Positions 10,865 to 37,292 of a DNA stretch of 46,026 bases are shown in pieces. Under the pieces are notes generated by a model. It saw only the letters and a program-made list of their open reading frames with translations. It made no database searches and was not told where the DNA came from. Positions within the stretch are counted from its first letter, which is position 1. Each line of letters starts with the position of its first letter. Made by a program: the position numbers and the translations under genes. The stretch is from Paracholeplasma morum. GTDB lineage: Bacteria; Bacillota_I; Bacilli_A; Acholeplasmatales; UBA5453. The stretch is taken from contig NZ_JAFBBG010000011.1 in assembly GCF_016907055.1 (NCBI RefSeq), positions 1 to 46,026 of the forward strand, in the 5' to 3' direction.

Positions 10865-11055
10865 CGTTTCTCAACCTCCTTAGGTTTTGCAGCTTGTTTT
10901 TCATACACAAATTCAAGTTCATTGTCCTTGTATGAAAACTCACTAATTTTGTGTGTCTTACAAAAGGTTTCGATTGTATTAATCTTTTCTTTTTGTTCTT
11001 CTAAAACAGTATTTAATACATCTTTTGAAACCTTACCGTTAATTGTTACCTTCAT
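10861..11055 (-). CDS. Small head-region protein
   Basis: A 64-residue charged protein (MKVTINGKVSKDVLNTVLEE, ending AAKPKEVEKR) between portal and prohead protease. The middle is predicted helical. It overlaps the portal gene by 17 bases and the protease gene by four, so it is embedded in the head operon and is likely real. No domain is recognised. Small accessory proteins in this slot occur in many HK97-like phages; whether it assists portal or prohead assembly is not known. Confidence 0.6.
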   Translation of the reverse strand: MKVTINGKVSKDVLNTVLEEQKEKINTIETFCKTHKISEFSYKDNELEFVYEKQAAKPKEVEKR

Positions 11056-12250
11056 TTAAATCATCCTTCCCTACTTGATATTCGTTTGCTTTTGTCGCAT
11101 CGACGTAATTGAGTGATTGTAATCTTCTATCACCGTTTTCTACTGGTTCAAGTCCCAACAACCCTCTTGATTCATTCAGTGACATGATGCCTAAACCCAT
11201 GAGCTTTTCAATCGCTGTAACCTTTGTGTTCCAAGATGCGTATTGAAGTCTTTCGCTATAAAAGATAATCTCTTCACCACGCATGATTTCATTTTGAGTA
11301 AGCAAGCCTAAAGAAAAAGCCTCAGACATTTGAATGGCTAAAGGCTCGATGGTTTGTTCATAAAATGAGTTAAACTCATCTTCTGTATATTTGGAATGAA
11401 AGATTGGAACAGATACACCAAAGTAATCTAGGATTTTTGATTGTAAAAACTCTAAGGTATCCTTATCTATTAGCTTTGGATCTGTTGTTAAAGGTACATA
11501 ATCACCTTTTAAATCCACAGGAATAATTGAACTGCCTTTATTTCTAATGGACTCTTTGAGTATCTCATTAAATGAATCAAGTTGTTTTTTCTTATCTGTT
11601 TCACTTAACATCGCACTCATTTTAAGAAGTCCCTTAATCTGCATGGAACTCTTAAGAGCATTATCAATACCTTGAAGTACATTCTCATTGATTTGTATTG
11701 TTTTTAGCAGTGCTTCTTGGTCACCTTTAGAACTCGATCCACCAAAGATCTGATTCGTGTGGTAAAACCTTTTAATATGAATAATGTTCTCATATGGAAT
11801 CGTGAAGGAATCCGTACTGTCAAAGCTAAACTTTAAATAGTAACTACCACCTGAATCTATGATTGGTTCAACAATGGATGGTTTAAGCGGATAAAGAGCT
11901 TTAATTTCACCGGTTGAACCATCAAACATTGGATAGATAAATGCATTGTCGTTCATGAGTAGTGTCGTAATCACCATATAGATAAATTGGTATGGAGTCA
12001 TAACCTCATTTGGTTGATGCTTTAAAATAAAAGACAGTTTGCCAGATTTCTCCTTAACTGTCTTATCATTCGCTTTCTTTATGTATCTTGGTTTTAGTTT
12101 TGCACACTGACTTGCTATCCGATCAATCGCAATCTTTACAACATCACTCTTTGATATATTGTTTCCAAAAGGTGTGAAGAACGTATTGTTTTGATTTAAT
12201 AACTGGAAGGTGCTTGTTGAACCTTCCTTTTTTTTTCTAAATAATGGCAT
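11039..12250 (-). CDS. Portal protein (HK97 family)
   Basis: A 403-residue protein. It begins MPLFRKKKEGS, a basic start common in portals, and contains VVKIAIDRIASQCAKLKPRY (~35-54), LLMNDNAFIYPMFDGSTGEI (~92-111), DYFGVSVPIFHSKYTEDEF and a C-terminal MGLGIMSLNESRGLLGLEPV, all characteristic of HK97-type portals. It forms the dodecameric channel at one capsid vertex through which DNA is packaged. Unusually, it is separated from terL by an oppositely oriented two-gene cassette (12351-13012) instead of following directly. Confidence 0.92.
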   Translation of the reverse strand: MPLFRKKKEGSTSTFQLLNQNNTFFTPFGNNISKSDVVKIAIDRIASQCAKLKPRYIKKANDKTVKEKSGKLSFILKHQPNEVMTPYQFIYMVITTLLMNDNAFIYPMFDGSTGEIKALYPLKPSIVEPIIDSGGSYYLKFSFDSTDSFTIPYENIIHIKRFYHTNQIFGGSSSKGDQEALLKTIQINENVLQGIDNALKSSMQIKGLLKMSAMLSETDKKKQLDSFNEILKESIRNKGSSIIPVDLKGDYVPLTTDPKLIDKDTLEFLQSKILDYFGVSVPIFHSKYTEDEFNSFYEQTIEPLAIQMSEAFSLGLLTQNEIMRGEEIIFYSERLQYASWNTKVTAIEKLMGLGIMSLNESRGLLGLEPVENGDRRLQSLNYVDATKANEYQVGKDDLNEGNN

Positions 12251-12285
12251 TTTTCTTAAACTCCTTATACTTCTCCATCTATGTA

Positions 12286-12314
12286 TTGTAAGTCATGAAA
12301 TAATATGATATACT
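12286..12314 (+). promoter_or_regulatory. Promoter of the opposite-strand cassette
   Basis: TTGTAA (12286-12291), a 17-base spacer and TATACT (12309-12314) form a near-consensus sigma-70-type promoter about 36 bases before the start codon at 12351. It faces away from the portal gene and would drive the 12351 and 12752 genes independently of the phage late programme, as expected of a gene cassette expressed in the lysogen. Confidence 0.75.
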
Positions 12315-12350
12315 TTACATAATAGGCTGTGGCTGTGGAAGTGAATAACT

Positions 12351-12716
12351 ATGAATGTTGTATCAGATAAATCTCGAATTTTAGAATTTCTAGATGAGAT
12401 TAGTAAACCATCTATGTTAAGATTCGATGAATCCTATTATAAAAACTTAGACTTCATTCATTGTATTATTTATATCGACAAATTAAATATTTATAAGTTA
12501 GATGAGCTTATTAATATTGATGAATCACTTATTAAGCACTCAAATAGAGTTCTAATTAATATTAACTCTGGACTTGGATTAAAAGTGTCCGAAATTGAAG
12601 CAATAACTAATATCATATCCAACAAAACTAATTTTAAAGATTATCATATTAATCTGCAATTTGATCTCGAAACTGACATTAATCGCATCGATCTTATGAT
12701 AATTTTTGTTGAATAA
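12351..12716 (+). CDS. Small protein resembling the FtsZ C-terminal domain
   Basis: A 121-residue protein on the opposite strand to all its phage neighbours, with its own promoter and a GGAAGTGA SD. By eye, residues ~63-121 can be laid over the C-terminal domain of FtsZ: RVLININSGLGLKVSEIEAI lines up with the FtsZ strand-loop-helix 'GVLMNITGG..L.L.EV..A', followed by NIISNK (FtsZ 'DIV/I') and a terminal strand IDLMIIFVE in the place of FtsZ 'eIvVTVIAtG'. The GTP-binding N-terminal domain is absent; the first ~60 residues are not recognised. If homologous it could bind or mimic FtsZ without GTPase activity. This is a pattern match only and needs a profile or structure search. Confidence 0.6.
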   Translation: MNVVSDKSRILEFLDEISKPSMLRFDESYYKNLDFIHCIIYIDKLNIYKLDELINIDESLIKHSNRVLININSGLGLKVSEIEAITNIISNKTNFKDYHINLQFDLETDINRIDLMIIFVE

Positions 12717-12751
12717 ATAAAGCTAAAACGAAATAGATGGAGAAATTTATA

Positions 12752-13012
12752 ATGGCAATTTACAGAATAATAATTGAAGAAATAGAGGATAAGGATACAT
12801 TAGCTGGGCAGATACTTCTATGGGTATTATTTGGTTGGTGGTTAGTTCCATTTCTTTTTTTCATGAAATACACATTTTACTTTATATTCGTTTTTCCATT
12901 CAAACTACTTATTAATGGTGTTCAAGAACGTAGTGTTCTTAAGATTTTATTTGGACTTATATTATGTGGCCTTTTGGGTTTGGCAATATATTATGGAAAT
13001 ACAAATCCATAA
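12752..13012 (+). CDS. Small integral membrane protein
   Basis: A protein of ~86 residues, second gene of the cassette. ATG 12752 (MAIYRIIIEEIEDKD) has a GGAG at 12739-12742; an in-frame ATG at 12737 lacks a good SD. After a charged N-terminal ~20 residues come hydrophobic stretches WVLFGWWLVPFLFFM and YTFYFIFVFPFKLLI, then a short amphipathic turn with Arg, and a last segment ILFGLILCGLLGLAIYY, giving two or three membrane spans. No family is recognised. Co-transcribed with the FtsZ-like gene 35 bases upstream, it may act with it at the membrane or may be an exclusion protein; both are guesses from context. Confidence 0.65.
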   Translation: MAIYRIIIEEIEDKDTLAGQILLWVLFGWWLVPFLFFMKYTFYFIFVFPFKLLINGVQERSVLKILFGLILCGLLGLAIYYGNTNP

Positions 13013-13043
13013 AGCTAATAAAATCAATAGCACCTCACAAAAG

Positions 13044-13065
13044 ACTCTTATGTTAAGAGTTTTTT
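13044..13065 (+). terminator. Intrinsic terminator of the opposite-strand cassette
   Basis: A perfect 7-bp stem ACTCTTA/TAAGAGT (13044-13050 and 13054-13060) with a TGT loop is followed by TTTTT. It ends the + strand cassette just before the terL stop codon. Read on the minus strand the hairpin is followed by CTTTTG, so some termination of the terL transcript is also possible. Confidence 0.8.
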
Positions 13066-14701
13066 ATATCATATTCTTATAATCCAACTTATATCTGTTC
13101 AAAACTGCATACGCAATGATAAGTGCTACAGCCCCATCAATCCTTTTATACTTGCTTCCAAGTTTTGATGGCTGAATGTTACCGTTAATATCAATCTTGG
13201 CCTGAGTGTTTGATAAATTCCACTTCATTATTGGATTATTGTTATAGATTACATTTCCATTTTTCAAATCAGCTTCGAGTTGTTTCATGGGCTCAGATAA
13301 AGAGTATATACCTTGTCTGACCTTTTCCATTTCAAAACCTAAGTCTTCCATTTCTTTAATCCAGTACTGACTATTCCATGGATCATAACCTACCCATAGA
13401 GGTCTAATTTCGTAAGTTCGAATCATCATCAAAAACCACTGAGTAACCAATGTAAAGTCATTTTGATTACCTTCAGTTACTGTAATTAAACCTCGTTGAA
13501 CCCAGATGTCATAAGGTACGTTATCTTCTTCTTTCCTACGTTTAATAACTTCACTCGGCATAAAAAATTGTGGGATAACATACTTCTTACCATCTTTGAT
13601 TACTAATAAGAGTACAACTGTAAGGTCGGTGGTTGATGATAAGTCAACACCTCCAATGGCGTAACTATTTCTTAGCTCATTGATATCATACGTTGCTTCA
13701 TTGTTTAGATCATTATAAGTTAACCATGATCCTTGTTCTAATTGTTTAACGTTGAAGTCTTTACAAAGCATCGTAACTCGTGTTGCTAAGTCATGCCTAG
13801 ATTTATTCATCAAGTCATCTAAGTATGAATATGTCTTAACAGTCCCGATGCTCGGATTACTTTTTTGCCATGTACTTTTATCTTCATATATTTCATTAAT
13901 TGAGTCTTGAGTATATAACCAGGGTAGTACTCGTTCATCGTGGACCTCCCCTTTGATCATTTTTCTAACATAATCAAGTTTACTATCTAGGAACCCACCT
14001 ACAGTATTACCTTCTGTTGTAATAATAAAAATCAGCGGTTCCTCTTTAGTTGATTGACTTTGCTTGATAGCATCATAGACTTTTGAATCAGTCATTTCAT
14101 GAACCTCATCAATACAACCAACCTCTATATTGTATCCATCCTTATTTCTTGATTGTGCTGACAGTTTTTTTATCTTATTCTTAGTTTTTGGTGAGTAAAT
14201 GTGAAAGATATTCTTCTTGCTTCTCTTTTCATTCGATAGAGCTTTTGAGCCTTCTCTCATATTGTTAATTTCTTCAAATAGGATATTCGCTTGTTCAGAT
14301 GTGTTTGATGCACATACGATATCAACTCCGCCTTTTGATAAGAAGAACTCCGCCAGATCTATACCTGCGATAAAGGTTGTCTTACCATTCTTTCTGGCAA
14401 TCAATAATAAAACTTCATTAAACCTTCTTAAATTAGTATCCGCCATTTTAAATCCATAAGCGGTTTGAAGTACTGCCTTCTCCCATAATTCTAGTATGAA
14501 TGGTTCTCCATTAAATGGACTTTTAGTATGTTTGCAGAAAGTTTCTATAAACTCGATTCGTATATTTCCAGGACGTTCATCAAAAGTGTATCTAGGATTA
14601 TCCATATCTTTAATAAGTGATTCAAGGACTGTTAGTAATTCTTTACCAACTTTTATTTTGCCCTTTTGAATCTCATCGTAATACATTAATAAATAGTTCA
14701 T
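13064..14701 (-). CDS. terL: Terminase large subunit
   Basis: A 545-residue DNA-packaging motor. The ATPase part has a Walker A-type LLIARKNGKTTF (A102-T108) and Walker B with acidic residues at ~196-200 (CIDEV), followed by a TEGN coupling-like motif (~228-231). The C-terminal nuclease part shows IGGVDLSSTTDLTVVLL (first metal-binding Asp) and a final DGAVALIIAY segment (last Asp). It cuts and translocates phage DNA into proheads together with the small subunit, which it overlaps by four bases (14698). Intact and of usual length. Confidence 0.93.
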   Translation of the reverse strand: MNYLLMYYDEIQKGKIKVGKELLTVLESLIKDMDNPRYTFDERPGNIRIEFIETFCKHTKSPFNGEPFILELWEKAVLQTAYGFKMADTNLRRFNEVLLLIARKNGKTTFIAGIDLAEFFLSKGGVDIVCASNTSEQANILFEEINNMREGSKALSNEKRSKKNIFHIYSPKTKNKIKKLSAQSRNKDGYNIEVGCIDEVHEMTDSKVYDAIKQSQSTKEEPLIFIITTEGNTVGGFLDSKLDYVRKMIKGEVHDERVLPWLYTQDSINEIYEDKSTWQKSNPSIGTVKTYSYLDDLMNKSRHDLATRVTMLCKDFNVKQLEQGSWLTYNDLNNEATYDINELRNSYAIGGVDLSSTTDLTVVLLLVIKDGKKYVIPQFFMPSEVIKRRKEEDNVPYDIWVQRGLITVTEGNQNDFTLVTQWFLMMIRTYEIRPLWVGYDPWNSQYWIKEMEDLGFEMEKVRQGIYSLSEPMKQLEADLKNGNVIYNNNPIMKWNLSNTQAKIDINGNIQPSKLGSKYKRIDGAVALIIAYAVLNRYKLDYKNMI

Positions 14702-15033
14702 TCTGACATTCTGCCTATGAACTTCTCAAATTCATCATCTTCATCAATTATGTTTTTACCCATAATGGAATTAAGTGTTTTGATGACTGTTCCATATGCA
14801 TTCACGAGTTTCGTGTAATACTTGGCTGCTTCAGTTTGACGTTGTGCACCTTTTTTGGAAATTTGAACAGCACCATATTTTCTAATTTGGTTTTGAAGTG
14901 ATTCTAATTGAACTCTCATAAAAGCTGCTTCATTGATTAAATTATCCACAAGTTCGCTCTTTGATTGTTCAACTGATAAAAAGAGCGTCTTTAATCTTTC
15001 ATATTCAATTTGTACTTTATCAATCACTGCCAT
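14698..15033 (-). CDS. Terminase small subunit, P27 family
   Basis: A protein of ~111 residues beginning MAVIDKVQIEYERLKTLF. ATG 15031-15033, after GAAAGTGAGTGA, is preferred to the GTG at 15042. It is almost wholly helical, with AKYYTKLVNAYGTVIKTLNS in the second half and an acidic C-terminus, as in P27-type small terminases. It lies immediately upstream of terL, with a four-base overlap, and downstream of an HNH gene, the standard packaging block of cos-type HK97-like phages. It recognises the packaging start site by analogy. Confidence 0.75.
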   Translation of the reverse strand: MAVIDKVQIEYERLKTLFLSVEQSKSELVDNLINEAAFMRVQLESLQNQIRKYGAVQISKKGAQRQTEAAKYYTKLVNAYGTVIKTLNSIMGKNIIDEDDEFEKFIGRMSE

Positions 15034-15153
15034 AATATTCACTCACTTTCAATAAAATAAAAAGCCACCGTAGTGACTTAATCTAATTTCTGGATTTTCA
15101 AAATTTTTGCCTTGCGTTTTTTAAGAGCCCACCCATGCGGTACCCTTAAGTAG

Positions 15154-15579
15154 TTAATTATCACTTGATAGGGGGGCTATTTTATTAATGATTATTTCTG
15201 CTTCTGAATCATTTATCTTTACATCATTAAACTTTGGACCTTTTTTGTTTATTGCAAGTCTTTCTATTTGATTAAGTTCTCTATTGGTTAAGTCTTGAAA
15301 TGATTTAAACTTGCATTTCACAATTTCTTTCCACCAGTACTCAACCTTATGAGAACCGCTTCCATGTCCAGTCAATCTACTATATAACGAAGTACTTTTA
15401 CCATTACCTACTTTACCAATGTATACTACTTGTTCATCTTTATCATATAAAAAATAAATCCCGTTCTTATATTCTGAATTCACTCCATATTTTCCGCTGA
15501 TAATATCGATTTTTTGAATAAATGGTTCAGCTTCAATTAAGTTAATTAATGTTTCTTTTAAACACTCTATTTTTGACAT
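15154..15579 (-). CDS. GIY-YIG family nuclease
   Basis: A 141-residue protein with GIYFLYDKDEQVVYIGKVG at 40-58, in which GIY at 40-42 and YIG at 53-55 are the family signature, followed by LYSRLTGH containing the usual catalytic Arg, and ELNQIERLAI holding the conserved Glu. The C-terminal part (GPKFNDVKIND) is short, so there is no separate DNA-recognition domain as in many homing enzymes. It sits between the HNH gene and terS. It may be a free-standing homing endonuclease or a packaging-associated nuclease; the sequence does not decide. Confidence 0.85.
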   Translation of the reverse strand: MSKIECLKETLINLIEAEPFIQKIDIISGKYGVNSEYKNGIYFLYDKDEQVVYIGKVGNGKSTSLYSRLTGHGSGSHKVEYWWKEIVKCKFKSFQDLTNRELNQIERLAINKKGPKFNDVKINDSEAEIIINKIAPLSSDN

Positions 15580-15617
15580 ATAAAAACCTATCCTATACTT
15601 TTATTTAATTTTATCAT

Positions 15618-15902
15618 TTACCCTACGTAATTACCATCCTTATCAAACATTAATTCTTTTTTCTTAAATCTTCCATGTTCGTCATTGTGACAGTTCTTAC
15701 AAAGCAGTTCCAAGTTATCTTGATTAAGGCTAATTGACGAATCATTCACATTCTCAACGGTGAGTCTTTTTTTGTGATGTACCTCTTCACCTACGGCACC
15801 ACATCGCTCACACTTGCCCTGTGTGGCGTTTGTTTTGATATTGCGAGCAATGAACCAAGCCTTCGATTTATAGAACCTGTGAAGCTCTTTTGGTTTCTTC
15901 AT
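15618..15902 (-). CDS. HNH endonuclease
   Basis: A 94-residue protein. Cys31-x2-Cys34, HH at 42-43, Asn63 and C68-x2-CH (71-72) with His76 form a complete HNH zinc/metal core. Small HNH proteins next to terS-terL are required for cos cleavage and packaging in many HK97-like phages; that is the likely role here. ATG 15900-15902 has an AAGGA SD inside the metK gene, so the two genes overlap by 35 bases, an unusually long overlap that suggests a tightly coupled or recently compacted junction. Confidence 0.9.
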   Translation of the reverse strand: MKKPKELHRFYKSKAWFIARNIKTNATQGKCERCGAVGEEVHHKKRLTVENVNDSSISLNQDNLELLCKNCHNDEHGRFKKKELMFDKDGNYVG

Positions 15903-18275: not shown

Positions 18276-19508
18276 TTAGTTCGAGACTTCTTCAATATCG
18301 GTTAATACATTCTTGAACTCATCAATTGAACTGAGTTCTATTTTTTTGCCATCTCGTATTAAGTAGCATTCTGCAATAGAACCTTTATGTTTTAGATATC
18401 TTTTTACAATAACATCAACAAATCTTTCATCAAGTTCCATTAGGTATGATTTTCTTTGAAGCTGATCTGATGCGATCATAGTTGATCCAGAGCCTCCAAA
18501 TAAGTCTAAAATAACTTCACCAACTCTTGATGAGTTAGAGATTGCTCTTCCACAAAGTTCTAATGGTTTCATCGTTGGATGTTCTTCATTTCGTTTAGGT
18601 TTGTTGTATTCCCATATCGTATCTTGCGTGCGGTCATCAATAAAGTAATGAGCAGCACCTTCTTTCCATCCATAAAGAATTGGTTCATGCCGCCAATGAT
18701 AATCTTGTCTACCAAGCACTAATGCATTCTTTACCCAAATAAGACACTCCGCTAACTTAAAGCCTGCATTCTTATAAGCATTTCTAAAATTCAAACCTTC
18801 TGTATCAGCGTGACATACATAGATTGCACCACCCGGTTTGGTGTTGTCAAAGATATTCTTGAATGCATTAAAAAGAAAAAGATAGAAGCTTTCGTCTCCC
18901 ATCTTGTCATTCTTAATCTTTCCAGCAGTTCCTTCATAATCCACATTATAAGGCGGATCGGTAAACGTCATGTCTACTTTTTGTCCGTCAAGTAGTTTCT
19001 CAACACTTTCTTTATCCGTTGAATCACCACACATGATTCTATGTGTTCCAAGTTGAAATATATCACCTAACTTAGCGTATGGTGTTTCACTGAGTTCGTC
19101 TGTAGGATCGAAATCATCATCTGTTGCATTATCAGGGACTTCCCCCTCTAATGATTCAAATCCAAATACACTCATATCCATTTCAATATTAGCAAGTTCA
19201 TCCTCTAATTTAGAAAAGTCCCATGAAGCGAGTTCTGCAGTCTTGTTATCTGCCAAACGAAAGGCCTTAATTTGCCCTTCTGTGAGGTCATCAGCAACAA
19301 TACAAGGAACAGTTGCCAATCCAAGTTTTAAGCTCGCTTTTAGCCTTGTGTGTCCAGCAATAATCACATTATCACTCGTAATCACAATAGGAACCTTAAA
19401 TCCAAATTCCTCGATACTTTTAGCAACTGCATCAATTGCCGCTTCATTATTTCTTGGATTGTTTTCGTACGCTTTGAGTTCTGATACTTGTTTCATCACT
19501 ATATTCAT
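18276..19508 (-). CDS. ParB-like domain fused to DNA adenine/cytosine-N4 methyltransferase
   Basis: A 410-residue protein. Residues 1-~95 are a ParB/sulfiredoxin-type domain (VSELKAYENNPRNNEAAIDA, AGHTRLKA at 51-58). Residues ~140-400 are an amino-methyltransferase of the DNA_methylase/N4-N6 class: DPPY at 184-187 (catalytic motif IV) comes before LDLFGGSGST (SAM-binding motif I, ~340-350), the beta-class order. HPTMKP before motif I is also typical. Such fusions are frequent in Gram-positive phages and protect phage DNA from host restriction. The start lies 62 bases inside the upstream HTH gene. No partner nuclease is adjacent, so it is an orphan. Confidence 0.92.
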   Translation of the reverse strand: MNIVMKQVSELKAYENNPRNNEAAIDAVAKSIEEFGFKVPIVITSDNVIIAGHTRLKASLKLGLATVPCIVADDLTEGQIKAFRLADNKTAELASWDFSKLEDELANIEMDMSVFGFESLEGEVPDNATDDDFDPTDELSETPYAKLGDIFQLGTHRIMCGDSTDKESVEKLLDGQKVDMTFTDPPYNVDYEGTAGKIKNDKMGDESFYLFLFNAFKNIFDNTKPGGAIYVCHADTEGLNFRNAYKNAGFKLAECLIWVKNALVLGRQDYHWRHEPILYGWKEGAAHYFIDDRTQDTIWEYNKPKRNEEHPTMKPLELCGRAISNSSRVGEVILDLFGGSGSTMIASDQLQRKSYLMELDERFVDVIVKRYLKHKGSIAECYLIRDGKKIELSSIDEFKNVLTDIEEVSN

Positions 19509-30147: not shown

Positions 30148-31401
30148 TTAATCGGTCAACACTTTTTCTATTTCAATACTTAGAAGTTCTTTATCATAAT
30201 CATGATTTCCATCATAATTTTTTAGTAGGTATCGTGTATCGACAACAATACCTTGGATTCGTTCATAAACCTGATGGGTACTAATCCAATCGCCAATGGC
30301 TTCTGCAACATTACCATACCATCCAGTAATCTTAAAATCATTATTTGATTTGTTAAAAGGCATAATGAAAGCATTAAACACTTCTAAACCAACTGGTGCT
30401 TTATTATTCTTTACATACTGACCATAAGTGATTTGCTTATTAATGTCAGATGACTGTGGTAATGCATTGATACCTAATCTAGGCAATATACCGTAGCGAT
30501 AGTATTTTGCATCTAGGACATAATATTTATCTCTATAAATCATGATTGTATCTGGTTCAAGAGCCGATGTAGGTCTACCTTTAGCTGGTCCGTATTTCTC
30601 AGTCCATTTTGCATGTGGGAAATAATCATGTTTATTAGGTTCCCCAAAGTACTTATCAATAAGTTTTTCCCAAACTGTTTCAAATCTATCTGTTCCAAAG
30701 TAAAATTGCTTATCAATTGTTTTATCATCCATAAACTCAATCATGGCAATCATTGATCTAAATAATTTCTTATCATTGTCATTATTAGTATTAGACAATT
30801 TATCGTTTAAGGTCGCAATAAATTTTGTCTTATCAAAAACAATATCTGGTTGTTCAGGCTTATTCGTAGTATAAAGCCAACCAATTTTCTCAAAACTTTC
30901 ATAAACACAATACTTATGTATTCGTGTAATTAGCCGATTTGAATTTTGGGAAGAAACTCTGACCACCTGATTAAAGTATAAAAGTGATTTACCTTGAATC
31001 ATTGGAGTTTGAGTTTTAATTGTTCTGCTCCAATCAGTCTTTCCTCGCTTATCCACTTTGTAAGTTGATTCTGTTTCTGTATAATAATTTCCATTATGAT
31101 CTAAGTAGTAATTAATAACATTTAGGTAGGCTTGTATAGGGAACTCAACTGAATGTGGAGCGGTAAACCTATCCATATGAAGAATTCTATCTGTTTTATC
31201 TGTAAAAGTAGCTAAAACATTAAATAGATTTTTTATATCCCTTTTTAGTTCATCCTCGCTTGTAGGTAATTCATACCCCATTGGAAAATAGATTACAACA
31301 TTATCACTATCAGCCTTTACTCCGACAAATCTATCTCCATCTTCGTTACTATTTACGTGACAGTGTTCACGCAAATTAAAATGATCACGATCTATTGGCA
31401 T
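30148..31401 (-). CDS. LlaJI-family restriction endonuclease subunit
   Basis: A 417-residue nuclease subunit. The catalytic PD-(D/E)xK core is plain: SALEPDTIMIYRDKYYVLDAKYY, with Asp284 and D297-A-K299. RPTSALEPD and the following 'YGILPRLGINALPQSSDINK' agree with the LlaJI endonuclease family, McrC-like partners of an McrB-type motor. It is the last gene of the operon, 17 bases after the AAA+ gene. In LlaJI systems (known from a Lactococcus plasmid) this subunit cuts unmodified DNA once the motor has engaged the site. Confidence 0.88.
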   Translation of the reverse strand: MPIDRDHFNLREHCHVNSNEDGDRFVGVKADSDNVVIYFPMGYELPTSEDELKRDIKNLFNVLATFTDKTDRILHMDRFTAPHSVEFPIQAYLNVINYYLDHNGNYYTETESTYKVDKRGKTDWSRTIKTQTPMIQGKSLLYFNQVVRVSSQNSNRLITRIHKYCVYESFEKIGWLYTTNKPEQPDIVFDKTKFIATLNDKLSNTNNDNDKKLFRSMIAMIEFMDDKTIDKQFYFGTDRFETVWEKLIDKYFGEPNKHDYFPHAKWTEKYGPAKGRPTSALEPDTIMIYRDKYYVLDAKYYRYGILPRLGINALPQSSDINKQITYGQYVKNNKAPVGLEVFNAFIMPFNKSNNDFKITGWYGNVAEAIGDWISTHQVYERIQGIVVDTRYLLKNYDGNHDYDKELLSIEIEKVLTD

Positions 31402-31418
31402 GTAATATACTCACCCCA

Positions 31419-33950
31419 TTAATTTCTTACTAGAGTGTTGTATATATTCTCTTTAAAGACTTCGAATCGTTCATCACCTTTTGCACTCAAAAAATGTTCA
31501 ATTACGTCTTCTAGACTTCTAACATTATCTAAATCGAAGATATCTTCTTTTGTGAATTTAAAAGCATCGTCCCATAAATATTTGAGAACCTTTTCTGGAA
31601 ATCTACTATTTTGTTTTTCATCACCTTGAATATATTTTAGATCCTCTATTGAAACAAAATGTGTTCCTAATCGTTTATCCTCTGAAGAGGTCATTCTAAT
31701 ATTTTTTTGCAGTATGATATTATTTATTTCTGAAAAGAATTTTTCCCAAGTAACTGTAGTATCCAGTATTCTCGCATTAGCCAATTCACTTTCTTTTCCT
31801 TCTTTAAACTTATTTTTGATAAGTCTCATACTCCATCTTCTTTGGAATGCAGTGTCAAGGGTAAAAACATTTTGGTCGCTTGTATTCATTGTACATAATA
31901 TTGACATATTTGATGGGATTGATACTTTATAGTTTTCATTACCATATACAATTTTGGCTATGTCACTATTAGTTATTTTATATTCACTACTTCCATCTTT
32001 ATTTCGATCTAATAATTGGAAAATATCACCAAAAATAGCAGGTGCATTACCTCTATTGACCTCTTCAATAATTAGATAGAACATCTTATTAGGGTTAATA
32101 TAGGATTTTCTTAATAGTTTCGTAAATGGACCCGGAGTAAACTTATAGCTTACAGATCCATCGTCATCTAGTCTAGGTAATATTTGACCAACAAAATCAG
32201 AATAAGTATAGTCAGGATGGAATACTAAACGTTCAATTCTATCATCATCATCGCAATACTCGTTTTTTATAGTCCATGATTTACCTGCACCAGGAACACC
32301 ATAGAGTATGATATTAGTACCTCCAGTTAATTTGTCTACTTCAACATCATCAAATATCACATCTTGATCTTCATCAAAAATCGTATTTTTACAATACTTA
32401 TGGAAAACTTTTGAAAAAACAACATTTGATATTTCACATCTTCTAACAAACTCATTAATTTGTCCTAATCTTCCGTATGATGTTTCTGATGGTGTAATAT
32501 TTAACAGTGAAAGAACCTTTAATTGCCAATCTCTATTATAGAAGACAGGAAATAAATCTGGAAAAATCATGTGGAAATACTTAGTAACCCACAAACTATC
32601 AACATATTCAGGAATAATAGTGAATAGTTTGGAGTACAAAGAAAGGTATTGTTCTACTGATTCTAATGGAAGTGATTCTTTGATGGCTTTAACAGCATTC
32701 ACTAGACCATCTCTAACTTTAACTCCAATAATTATAGTTTCATCAAGTTGAAGTTCTTTTGGATTACGTGCGGTTCCAGTCATCCAAGTTCCATTTCTTT
32801 TAAATAAAGGATACTTAAATGCATTCCCGTTTTTTATACTTCCAAATAAATCTGTATTCCTCTTCACATATTCAAGTTCATGACATAGATTATCAGAGTT
32901 ACCTCCTAAAAATAAAGCATTTAATAACTCTTCGCCGGAGTAAGTTGATAATTTGTCGATACCATAATTTTCGTTAAAGCTAACATAGATTCTTTGTGCT
33001 TCTAAATCATCCCCAGTAAACTCCTCGCCTTTTTCTTTAAACCATTCTGGAGTAAGAATCTTAGATGTTTTTTTAGTGTCATCACTAAATAATGATTTGG
33101 TAGAGCATAGAAAATCGATGTATTCAGAATCGCTGAAATTATAATTTTTACTTTCAAATTCATATACCTTCTTTGATATTAAAGGTATATACTCTTCTTT
33201 CAATGTTAATTTATCATTTGAACTCTCTATGTATTCTAGAAGTTCAATTGCTTTGTTCATTCTATTATCAAACTTACCTCTCAATGTTTTAAACTCTTCG
33301 ATTACGGAAATGCCACTGTTATACGTTTGATCTCCTTCTTCCCTTAACAATTTGATGTATAGCATTGTTTCCAAAAAGTCTGAATATTTTTTAGTAGTGG
33401 CAACAAGATATCTATACTCATTCATTGTAATAGAATATGATCCAGTTGCTTTTCCCAATTCTAATAATATCTTATTTAGAAACATTATCGGGAAAATGGC
33501 ATACTCTCCTCTAACGTTTGCTTTACCTTCATCAATCGATGAAGAAATATACATTTTTTCAATTTGTCTTGTAATAATATCTTGATATAATTCTGTTTTT
33601 TCAAAATCACCAGAACATCTATTTAATATTTCATAATATGTATCTGTAAAAATACATTCATCGTACTTAGATGATGTCATTTTAATTAATCCAAAAAAAG
33701 CAGCAACCCTTAATGCTCTATAATTATCTGACAATCTTAAATTGGGTTTGACTGAATTAATCAAACTCACTTTTTTACTTATATGCTCTTCTAAATTGAC
33801 TGAAACTCCAGGATTATCTTTATAATCTTTTAAAAATGTGACTAAATAACAAAGATGAGCAAAATTAGTTGAATGTTTTACTAAATACCAACATTCATAA
33901 TCTTGTGCAGACTTAAGTTCGTTCAATTTTCTTTCTAACAATGGATTCAT
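31419..33950 (-). CDS. McrB-like AAA+ motor subunit of LlaJI-type system
   Basis: An 843-residue protein. The C-terminal ~300 residues are an McrB-type AAA+ NTPase: Walker A GVPGAGKS (551-558), Walker B YLIIEEVNRGN (625-635), sensor CTMNTSDQN (686-694) and the RRW arginine pair (704-706). McrB-type proteins normally hydrolyse GTP. The N-terminal ~520 residues are unique to this kind of protein and are the likely DNA-recognition region (LlaJI R1). It overlaps the cytosine methyltransferase gene by four bases (33947-33950). It would translocate DNA or signal to the nuclease encoded next. Confidence 0.9.
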   Translation of the reverse strand: MNPLLERKLNELKSAQDYECWYLVKHSTNFAHLCYLVTFLKDYKDNPGVSVNLEEHISKKVSLINSVKPNLRLSDNYRALRVAAFFGLIKMTSSKYDECIFTDTYYEILNRCSGDFEKTELYQDIITRQIEKMYISSSIDEGKANVRGEYAIFPIMFLNKILLELGKATGSYSITMNEYRYLVATTKKYSDFLETMLYIKLLREEGDQTYNSGISVIEEFKTLRGKFDNRMNKAIELLEYIESSNDKLTLKEEYIPLISKKVYEFESKNYNFSDSEYIDFLCSTKSLFSDDTKKTSKILTPEWFKEKGEEFTGDDLEAQRIYVSFNENYGIDKLSTYSGEELLNALFLGGNSDNLCHELEYVKRNTDLFGSIKNGNAFKYPLFKRNGTWMTGTARNPKELQLDETIIIGVKVRDGLVNAVKAIKESLPLESVEQYLSLYSKLFTIIPEYVDSLWVTKYFHMIFPDLFPVFYNRDWQLKVLSLLNITPSETSYGRLGQINEFVRRCEISNVVFSKVFHKYCKNTIFDEDQDVIFDDVEVDKLTGGTNIILYGVPGAGKSWTIKNEYCDDDDRIERLVFHPDYTYSDFVGQILPRLDDDGSVSYKFTPGPFTKLLRKSYINPNKMFYLIIEEVNRGNAPAIFGDIFQLLDRNKDGSSEYKITNSDIAKIVYGNENYKVSIPSNMSILCTMNTSDQNVFTLDTAFQRRWSMRLIKNKFKEGKESELANARILDTTVTWEKFFSEINNIILQKNIRMTSSEDKRLGTHFVSIEDLKYIQGDEKQNSRFPEKVLKYLWDDAFKFTKEDIFDLDNVRSLEDVIEHFLSAKGDERFEVFKENIYNTLVRN

Positions 33951-35056
33951 TTATTTCCCCCCTTTAGTAGATTATCTAAAAATCTTGCCAAAAAATATGA
34001 GATCTTTGGCGGAACTGCATTACCGATTTGTTTGCAAATTGATGTTCTTTTTCCATAAAAAACAAAATCATCTGGAAAACTTTGTATTCTGGCAGCTTCT
34101 CTAGGAGTTAATGTTCTATTTTCAATAGGATGTGTAAACATTCCCCCAGCTGGAGTATCAAATCTTGTAGTAATTGTTGGAGATTGAATGTCCCAACTCA
34201 AACGACCGTATGCTCCGCTGTGCACTGATTTAATTTTCTCATTCAAAACTGTAAAATTCTCTCCACTTTTTATTATCTTCATTCTTTCAATTGCCACTTT
34301 AGAATGTTTAGTCATATTATGATTTTGAATCTGACTACTTTTTTTAGAATTTGACAAGTAATTTTGATAATTAGTTACAGGTAATAAATTGAACACCATA
34401 CCATTTTCTGAAGGAGTTGGTAAGTTACCTATTGCATCCCATACGGTTACTGGTTCAAAATAATCAGGGTTCTCTTTCTTAATAGCATTAATGGTTTCAT
34501 TCCAGATTTTTTCAAAATCAACATTATCTTTTCTTACACCAATTATTATCATTCTTTCCCTTTTTTGTGGGATTCCGAATTCAACAGCATTAACAACTCT
34601 ATAATATAAATTAAAAGGTTCTCCATCAAGAAGTTCAGCAGATGAAAAATGTCTAAGAATCTCATTAAATACTTCTCCATTTTTCATACTTCTAATACCT
34701 TTAACATTTTCAAACACAAATGCTTTTGGTTTAACCAACTTCACTATATTAAAATAATGTTTAAATAAATAATTTCTCGGATCATCAATAAAACCATTTC
34801 TGATACGTGCACCAGCCATTGAGAACCCTTGACAAGGTGGTCCACCAATAATTATATCAGTTTCTCCACTTTGGAAAAAATCACTAGTATCTACATTTTG
34901 AATATCATCAACTATCATTTTAACATTTGGGTGATTCATTTTGTACGTATTGGCAATTTCTTTATCATATTCAAGTGCTTTAATGACAGTATAACCTGCT
35001 TTAATAAAACCCAATGACAAGCCACCACACCCAGAGAATAAATCAATTACTTTCAT
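33947..35056 (-). CDS. DNA (cytosine-5) methyltransferase
   Basis: A complete 369-residue C5-cytosine methyltransferase. Motif I DLFSGCGGLSLGF (5-17), motif IV GGPPCQGFS with catalytic Cys75, motif VI FENVKG (115-120), motif VIII PQKRERM (163-169) and motif X CKQIGNAVPP near the C-terminus are all present. The target-recognition region lies at ~175-290. It protects one strand of the recognition site of the adjacent LlaJI-type nuclease. It overlaps the adenine methyltransferase gene by 14 bases and the motor gene by four. Confidence 0.95.
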   Translation of the reverse strand: MKVIDLFSGCGGLSLGFIKAGYTVIKALEYDKEIANTYKMNHPNVKMIVDDIQNVDTSDFFQSGETDIIIGGPPCQGFSMAGARIRNGFIDDPRNYLFKHYFNIVKLVKPKAFVFENVKGIRSMKNGEVFNEILRHFSSAELLDGEPFNLYYRVVNAVEFGIPQKRERMIIIGVRKDNVDFEKIWNETINAIKKENPDYFEPVTVWDAIGNLPTPSENGMVFNLLPVTNYQNYLSNSKKSSQIQNHNMTKHSKVAIERMKIIKSGENFTVLNEKIKSVHSGAYGRLSWDIQSPTITTRFDTPAGGMFTHPIENRTLTPREAARIQSFPDDFVFYGKRTSICKQIGNAVPPKISYFLARFLDNLLKGGNK

Positions 35057-36695
35057 TTATAGCACCTCCACCTACACGATATCTAAATGCGAAGTTTTTT
35101 ATATGTATTTTTTCTTCTTCTGTAAGACCATATAACTCACAAATTAGATCGTCAATTTCATGTATCTCATCTATGCAATCTTTGTGTTTATATTCATATT
35201 CAGTTTGCTTCGTTCCAACATACAGTTTTGTTTTTTCAAGTTTATTTTCCAATTTTTTCGCAAGTGCATTTACTTTTTGATAACTATCCATATTTGGAAC
35301 AGTAAATCCTTTTAGCTCTTTATTAGTTATATGCCAACAATCGGACACAGATATCCAATACCACCAAAACAACGAAGAGTTCAGTATACAGAAACATAGA
35401 TTTGCCATTTCTTTTGAAGAACAACCATACTTTTTATACTCACCAGAATTGTGTTCTTCACGAAATGCTTTTATCCAAAAAGCTGCTCTCATATTTAAGT
35501 AAACTGGAACATCTCCTTCTGTTAAAAGTGTAAATAAAGATTTTTGATTCTCAGTTACTTTTTCATAAACAATTTGATCATATAATGACCCTAATTTTGG
35601 AATATACTCTTCTTTTACAAATCTATTATGAATTGTTGGTACATTTTCAAATAGATTCTCTCGTTCCTCTTTGTACCAAAATTGATAATTGCCTGTATAA
35701 ATTCTTGATTCTTCTTTATTAACTCTATGTTTACCTATTAAAATACTTAATTTCTGATGGACTGCAGGAAATAAGCAATCAGGTCTATCACAATAACTTA
35801 ATATATATTGCTCACTTAATTTGCTTATAAGTATGTTTCTTATTTTTTTCATCCTTGGGGTAGAAATATATGAGAGTGGTATAATAAATCCCATAGCTCC
35901 ATCACTAGCAAGACAATTTGAAGAGTTTTCTAAAACATTTGCATAAACATTACCATACTTTTTTAATGGAATAGTGTCGCTTTTGTTATCCTCTACATAT
36001 GGGGGATTCCCAATTATAATGTCAAATTTTTCATTAAATTTCTTATCCAAATTAATGAAATCAATATAAGTGAAATTATTATTAAGTTCTTCTGAAACTC
36101 CAAGTACTTTATCTGCTCCATATCTATTTAATAGATAAACAAATAATCTAAGCTTCGTTATGGTTATTGAATCATGGTTAATGTCATTGCCATGAATAGT
36201 ACGGACTATTCTACATAAATCTTTATTGCTGACAATTGTTTGGTGTAAATCTACCAAGTCTAGTTTCGTTGCTAATGCAACAAGTAAGAATTCTCCAGCT
36301 CCACACGTAGGATCAAAAACACTTTTTTCATAACAAAATGATCTATATGGAACACCATTCAAATCTTGCACATGTAAATTGCTTTTTTTAATAATTCCAT
36401 ATAAGGATTTTACTGTGTTTGAAAATATAAAGTTTACTACATCATTTGGAGTATAATAAACACCTTTGCTTTTTCTGTTTAATCCTTTTTCATTGATTGT
36501 AGAAAGAATAATTTGTAACTCTTGATATGAGTATTTTCCAAGAATGTGAGAATAATCTTGTGGATTAAACTCTATAAAGTTAGTAAGTTCACTGCTAATA
36601 ACATCAACTTCTTGTTTACTGAAATTGTGATTTAGATATTTATAAATTTCCTGTAACGTTTTTTCAATTATATTATTAATTACTTGCATTCTCAT
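35043..36695 (-). CDS. Eco57I-like DNA (adenine-N6) methyltransferase
   Basis: A 550-residue methyltransferase with motif I FDPTCGAGEFL (127-137) and motif IV IIGNPPYVED (NPPY at 230-233), the gamma-class N6-adenine signature. KSKGVYYTPNDVVNFI (75-90), before motif I, is typical of Eco57I/type I M proteins. No nuclease domain is fused. The C-terminal ~250 residues probably recognise the target (TVPNMDSYQKVNALAKKLEN near ~490). Together with the C5 methyltransferase it would cover the two strands of a non-palindromic site. Known LlaJI has two C5 enzymes, so an N6A enzyme here is unusual. Confidence 0.92.
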   Translation of the reverse strand: MRMQVINNIIEKTLQEIYKYLNHNFSKQEVDVISSELTNFIEFNPQDYSHILGKYSYQELQIILSTINEKGLNRKSKGVYYTPNDVVNFIFSNTVKSLYGIIKKSNLHVQDLNGVPYRSFCYEKSVFDPTCGAGEFLLVALATKLDLVDLHQTIVSNKDLCRIVRTIHGNDINHDSITITKLRLFVYLLNRYGADKVLGVSEELNNNFTYIDFINLDKKFNEKFDIIIGNPPYVEDNKSDTIPLKKYGNVYANVLENSSNCLASDGAMGFIIPLSYISTPRMKKIRNILISKLSEQYILSYCDRPDCLFPAVHQKLSILIGKHRVNKEESRIYTGNYQFWYKEERENLFENVPTIHNRFVKEEYIPKLGSLYDQIVYEKVTENQKSLFTLLTEGDVPVYLNMRAAFWIKAFREEHNSGEYKKYGCSSKEMANLCFCILNSSLFWWYWISVSDCWHITNKELKGFTVPNMDSYQKVNALAKKLENKLEKTKLYVGTKQTEYEYKHKDCIDEIHEIDDLICELYGLTEEEKIHIKNFAFRYRVGGGAINESN

Positions 36696-37201: not shown

Positions 37202-37292
37202 TGGCGGAGAAAAGGGGATTTGAACCCCTGCGCCGGGTTAACGACCTACGAGCTTTCCAAGCCCGCCCCTTCAACCACTTGGGTATTTCTCC
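37202..37292 (-). tRNA. tRNA-Ser (GGA)
   Basis: A 91-base class II tRNA with the 7-bp acceptor GGAGAAA/TTTCTCC, discriminator G, encoded CCA, anticodon loop CTTGGAAAG (anticodon GGA, reading UCC/UCU), a long variable arm with the TCGTAGGTCGTTAACCCGGC region, and a GGGGTTCAAATCCCC T-arm. Its 3' end faces the defence island and prophage, the usual orientation for an element integrated into a tRNA gene. Confidence 0.97.

Follow-up and report, generated by a model that had tools for sequence, protein, structure and literature searches.

Small phage-encoded proteins tied to the division protein FtsZ include Gp0.4 of phage T7, Hdi of T5 and Kil of lambda. These are short two-helix proteins that bind the face of FtsZ which the protein described here resembles; besides Gp0.4, Hdi also targets FtsZ (PMC10714956). 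Gp0.4 binds the surface formed by the synergy loop and the C-terminal domain (C-domain) of FtsZ, and the resulting FtsZ–Gp0.4 complex activates the defence protein CapRel, so that in CapRel-Ebc this surface is read in anti-phage defence (PMC13423816). Together with the T7 loop, the C-domain makes up the face that completes the GTPase site of the neighbouring subunit (PMC8936486). Prophages also possess antiviral hotspots, in which variable cargo including defence genes is inserted between conserved phage genes.

Here we analysed a prophage on contig C11 of an Acholeplasmatales assembly, in a window of 46,026 bases comprising the whole stretch of DNA under study; the identical region is present in the IMG/VR virus contig IMGVR_UViG_2596583628_000002. 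Between terL and the portal gene it carries a cassette encoding FzC (P0001), a stand-alone FtsZ C-domain-like protein, and a small membrane protein. In contrast to Gp0.4, Hdi and Kil, FzC is very probably a distant relative of FtsZ itself, is carried as variable cargo and is predicted to adopt a mixed alpha/beta rather than a two-helix fold. Compared with CapRel-Ebc, in which the host's own FtsZ is read and a fused toxin-antitoxin acts as effector, a dedicated FtsZ fragment would here lie beside a membrane protein. The setting differs from the described prophage antiviral hotspots in phage group and junction (terL–portal, Acholeplasmatales). We know of no phage FtsZ inhibitor described for this bacterial order, and to our knowledge few defence systems have been studied so far in this bacterial group.

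Table 1. Features of the terL–portal junction and its cassette (positions in the window)
Feature	Coordinates	Strand	Basis
terL	13064–14701	−	ORF list, annotation
portal	11039–12250	−	ORF list, annotation
terL–portal junction, variable cargo slot	12251–13063		Related loci: 32/88 empty, 56/88 loaded
Gene 1, stand-alone FtsZ C-domain-like protein FzC (P0001), 121 aa	12351–12716	+	ORF, homologues, family profile, dN/dS
Putative T7-loop-like motif of FzC, residues 19–30 (KPSMLRFDESYY)	12405–12440	+	hhalign, hmmsearch
FzC segment matching Pfam FtsZ_C, residues 61–94	12531–12632	+	PF12327, 14.9 bits, below cutoff
Gene 2, small membrane protein, 91 aa (86 aa from start 12752)	12737–13012	+	ORF, two hydrophobic segments
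Candidate cassette promoter, TTGTAA-17-TATACT, TG before −10	12286–12314	+	9/12 match
Terminator-like hairpin with T run	13039–13065	+	−10.0 kcal/mol, z = −4.0

A first-pass annotation of this DNA had described two genes lying antisense to the flanking terL and portal genes, with a promoter and a terminator of their own. Both ORFs were found in this arrangement (Table 1). The candidate promoter has an extended −10 element; its match to the consensus is not above chance for the region, in which 13 promoter-like sites occur against 10.1 ± 3.0 in shuffled sequences; taken alone, it is weak. At the equivalent place of the homologous cassette in phage L172 there is an 11/12 extended −10 site (TTTACA-17-TATAAT). 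The terminator, which had been placed near 13044, was recovered as a hairpin with a T run at its end, and an automatic terminator scan had passed it over owing to its AT-rich stem. Gene 2 may be the shorter of its two versions (Table 1), since the clearer ribosome-binding site, GGAG at 12739–12742, precedes the ATG at 12752 rather than the start at 12737.

Several other genes were recorded in the window. A small gene (14698–15042) precedes terL, and genes for a GIY-YIG-like and an HNH endonuclease stand side by side just upstream of it (15154–15902). An ORF within the phage (15868–17019) resembles by eye S-adenosylmethionine synthetase (metK) and is situated near a DNA methylase gene (18276–19508) with a ParB-like N-terminus. 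Type II restriction genes for two REase_II-type subunits, a cytosine methyltransferase and a second methyltransferase (30148–36695) are found near a tRNA gene (37205–37292), towards one prophage end.

The terL–portal junction had been regarded as normally one of the most invariant in phages. We collected TerL relatives from viral contigs and genomes and obtained 88 loci with both flanks; these include near-duplicates, so that the counts are of loci and not of independent events. The gap between the two genes measures 11–41 bp in 32 loci and 243–1695 bp in the other 56, where it is loaded with variable cargo. For this phage group, this overturned the supposed invariance, and the cassette as a breach of an invariant junction was rejected. 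The annotated cargo includes HEPN_AbiV (8e-24), HEPN_AbiU2 (2e-4, below its cutoff), RES, DUF2971/PDC-S31 (3.5e-33), UzuA (2e-60), an RNase III-like protein and an SDH-type protease. Most cargo is oriented as terL; in a few loci, that of the FzC cassette among them, it runs antisense. The cassette is almost certainly accessory prophage cargo. Across this phage group (L109–L199) the slot holds about two dozen different genes, many of them unannotated, and candidates for new defence systems are found, for example, at L125, L139, L152, L159 and L181. The same assembly contains a second related prophage (L209, G000:C13:18000-37900; TerL 95%), the slot of which is taken up by one long gene, co-oriented and with a nuclease-like motif, IFIEAKL, as judged by eye.

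Homologues of FzC were found in G022, G118/UBA6181, L172 and L211. A search with P0001 matched G022 (E = 1.8e-12), the G022 sequence matched G118 (7.9e-17), and a profile of these three matched G394 (1.9e-5). A scan of genome contigs with P0001 alone gave no match; with the three-sequence alignment as query it found UBA6181, an Acholeplasmataceae metagenome-assembled genome with a chromosomal homologue 55% identical to FzC. Against the L172 and UBA6181 homologues, the dN/dS ratio of gene 1 is about 0.20–0.29, and the gene is under purifying selection. Other stand-alone members of the family have 116–130 residues. No FzC was matched in named phages and plasmids, and neither cassette product had a usable match in PHROGs, NCBIfam or PADLOC. 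In a tree of stand-alone members and FtsZ, the group of P0001, L172, G118 and G022 is firm (99/100); a single origin of all stand-alone members does not gain firm support from this tree. A nine-member profile had matches in 324 of 395 genomes of the class; among the matches listed were eight stand-alone or fused members, all previously known, followed by FtsZ, to which the other listed matches correspond in length and in the profile positions covered. In these 395 genomes, stand-alone FtsZ C-domain-like members are rare and scattered. Membrane genes adjoin several FzC loci; as their baseline frequency was not established, this is not counted as support.

Some further family members and FtsZ-like sequences were noted. 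In G022 a second FzC domain follows a hydrophobic stretch within a single polypeptide (L039:6621-7208), which adjoins a MerR-like regulator gene (by eye) and lies about 2 kb from the stand-alone FzC. G013 has a 116-aa, weakly FtsZ_C-like ORF of uncertain membership directly upstream of ftsZ (L044:10116-10463), and G053 encodes divergent FtsZ-like paralogues (L047:8878-9891; G053:C29:47725-48012) besides a normal FtsZ.

The first-pass annotation had laid the second half of the first product over the FtsZ C-domain and found no GTP-binding domain. The latter is also lacking from the other stand-alone members, and P0001 ends at the last C-domain strand, having neither the C-terminal linker nor the conserved peptide of FtsZ. 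The likeness was borne out by profile methods, only through intermediate family members; the earlier pairing of VLININSG and EIEAI is also the one given by hhalign. Against Pfam FtsZ_C (PF12327), P0001 scores E = 0.035 and stays below the curated cutoff of 27 bits (Table 1), whereas the family member G018 passes it (29.5). An FtsZ_C search of 61 relatives showed FtsZ in 54 genomes, besides several small ORFs of 119–157 aa with scores from weak to passing; G049:C3 (L046) was dropped as a further member, its translation looking unlike one. Using a profile of members of the chain that leads from P0001 to G394, chosen without FtsZ_C, FtsZ proteins come next among 1,242 ORFs, and with a profile of G394 and G022b only they come next among 3,669 ORFs. 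Profile–profile scores were judged against 200 column shuffles. The P0001 subfamily scores 37.0 against the other stand-alone members (shuffle maximum 18.5), and these score 60.8 against FtsZ (21.1), whereas the direct comparison of the P0001 subfamily with FtsZ gave 17.0, which is noise level given a shuffle maximum of 20.5. A claim of direct FtsZ homology for P0001 or its three- or four-member subfamily was accordingly dropped. As the direct comparison is at shuffle level and both linking steps are above it, the relationship is transitive; by this route P0001 is very probably a distant homologue of the FtsZ C-domain.

The FtsZ C-domain fold was not confirmed by structure prediction. AlphaFold models of FzC from two and three input sequences reached a pLDDT of only 52 and 55. 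The low-confidence model shows a helix, a T7-like loop and a short helix followed by a beta-alpha-beta-alpha-beta-beta order, an element order that would fit the FtsZ C-domain. Foldseek searches for an FtsZ/tubulin fold with these models returned no FtsZ among the matches listed, none of which was significant; those of the weak model were of the IF3-C and Alba type. These matches, together with the shuffle-level direct comparison, could mean that FzC is unrelated to FtsZ and resembles it through an alpha/beta sandwich pattern of a general type, which IF3-C, Alba and SepF also show. We regard this as very improbable, given that the transitive chain lies far above shuffles and that the FtsZ-blind chain reaches FtsZ next.

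Alignment by hhalign and hmmsearch extends P0001 over both the T7 loop and the C-domain of FtsZ, with the motif KPSMLRFDESYY laid on the FtsZ T7 loop VPGLINVDFADV. Thus the T7 loop, absent from the earlier proposal, is probably kept in FzC. Within the P0001 subfamily, conservation is strongest in this motif, with KPS, R24, D26, S28, Y29 and Y30 invariant among P0001, L172 and UBA6181. In the favoured register, R, D26 and Y29 stand for N, D and D of NxDxxD; MAFFT shifts the motif by three residues, so that claims on single residues of the loop are provisional. Several other stand-alone members keep both aspartates. With Tyr in place of the second catalytic Asp, the surface of FzC would not be a faithful copy of that of FtsZ. 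By eye, VIQKAIQGIVE of G394 resembles VLRQGVQGIAE of FtsZ, which belongs to the end of helix H7.

The part retained in FzC is the half of FtsZ that contacts the nucleotide pocket of the neighbour (hhalign, hmmsearch; T7-loop roles in PMC8936486). FzC might therefore cap or sequester the host FtsZ, its T7 loop docking in the GTP pocket on the top face, like that of the next subunit of a filament, without a pocket of its own to offer, so that division would be slowed and the membrane protein would serve as anchor, regulator or antitoxin. The invariant D26 combined with Tyr at the second position would suit docking without completing hydrolysis, and the fused G022 protein, with its FzC domain behind a hydrophobic stretch, would place membrane segment and domain in one chain. 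However, a constitutive division block would burden the lysogen, mutations in the top interface are reported to be less toxic than those in the bottom one (PMC8936486), the T7-loop Asn is replaced by Arg in P0001 and the first Asp by Ala in G022, and the company of defence cargo points to an anti-phage role. Overall, capping appears rather doubtful, although it is the chief rival of the model proposed below.

The product of gene 2 has two hydrophobic segments (residues 22–45 and 64–89). Searches of 61 relative genomes and viral contigs found only gene 2 itself, and named phages gave no match. Recurrence of FzC with a small membrane protein in other prophages, which the first-pass annotation had proposed to check, was observed in part. 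In phage L172, the TerL of which is 81% identical, an FzC homologue (49% identical) occupies the same slot in antisense orientation, followed by a protein of 187 aa that has two hydrophobic segments near its N-terminus, a 63-aa Cys-rich protein and an intrinsic terminator; L211, from a different metagenome, carries the same cassette. The combination thus recurs at the same junction in a second lineage, but the membrane partner of L172 bears no resemblance to gene 2. Such exchange of the partner, the distance of the FzC sequence from FtsZ and the form of a two-gene cassette with its own signals in a defence slot would also fit a toxin-antitoxin or exclusion module off the division machinery, in which the membrane protein is active and FzC controls it. 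On the other hand, the strong conservation of the T7-like motif, unmatched elsewhere in the subfamily sequences, suggests that FzC still makes a contact of the FtsZ type, and the FzC of G022 has no obvious membrane partner gene; we consider this alternative unlikely.

An anti-phage or exclusion function, the latter as had been suggested, is favoured by the AbiV, AbiU2, RES, UzuA and PDC-S31 company in the slot, and by the UBA6181 homologue, which lies within about 4 kb of genes for PDC-S26 (5.6e-101) and a NERD helicase. Against the reading as defence cargo we counted several chromosomal FzC members in ordinary surroundings, and one candidate member that adjoins ftsZ. On balance, a role in defence or exclusion is the likelier one for the cassette. 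As such it would be prophage cargo of a known kind with a new composition; in a literature search covering few subscription papers, no free-standing FtsZ C-domain protein was seen to have been described.

The gene content enables us to propose a putative model. The cassette would be expressed in the lysogen from its own promoter, and its products would act against competing phages. FzC would correspond to the T7 loop and C-domain of FtsZ together with the last part of helix H7, and it has neither the GTPase domain nor the C-terminal tail. In contact with FtsZ or with FtsZ inhibitors, it might lure away, as decoy or bait, the proteins that an incoming phage directs at FtsZ, or act as a sensor of disturbed FtsZ, and the membrane protein of gene 2 would be the effector, causing membrane damage or exclusion. 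Cooperation of the two genes is suggested by their position only, as the membrane partners are mutually unrelated and gene 2 has no relatives. We put this decoy or sensor mechanism forward tentatively, and favour it over capping of FtsZ because of the defence cargo in the slot and because the cassette has to be tolerated by the lysogen. Tyr at the second catalytic position, the low-confidence structure model and the want of any phage FtsZ inhibitor known to us from this bacterial order speak against it. A more doubtful generalization would be that temperate phages have recruited free-standing FtsZ C-domain modules, scattered over Acholeplasmatales and relatives, as bait that mimics the FtsZ surface under attack by rival phages, with binding triggering a membrane effector.

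In summary, the locus suggests a means, not described so far, by which a resident virus would control or protect the division machinery of its host. If this is right, phages carry FtsZ as a broken-off, reusable module, which would offer nature's own tool for the study of FtsZ assembly, and the finding that phage-hit FtsZ can be read by bacterial immunity would be extended. Should the bait reading be true, it would represent immunity by a molecular decoy of the division machinery. Whatever the mechanism, the terL–portal slot of these phages concentrates candidate defence genes in a small space.
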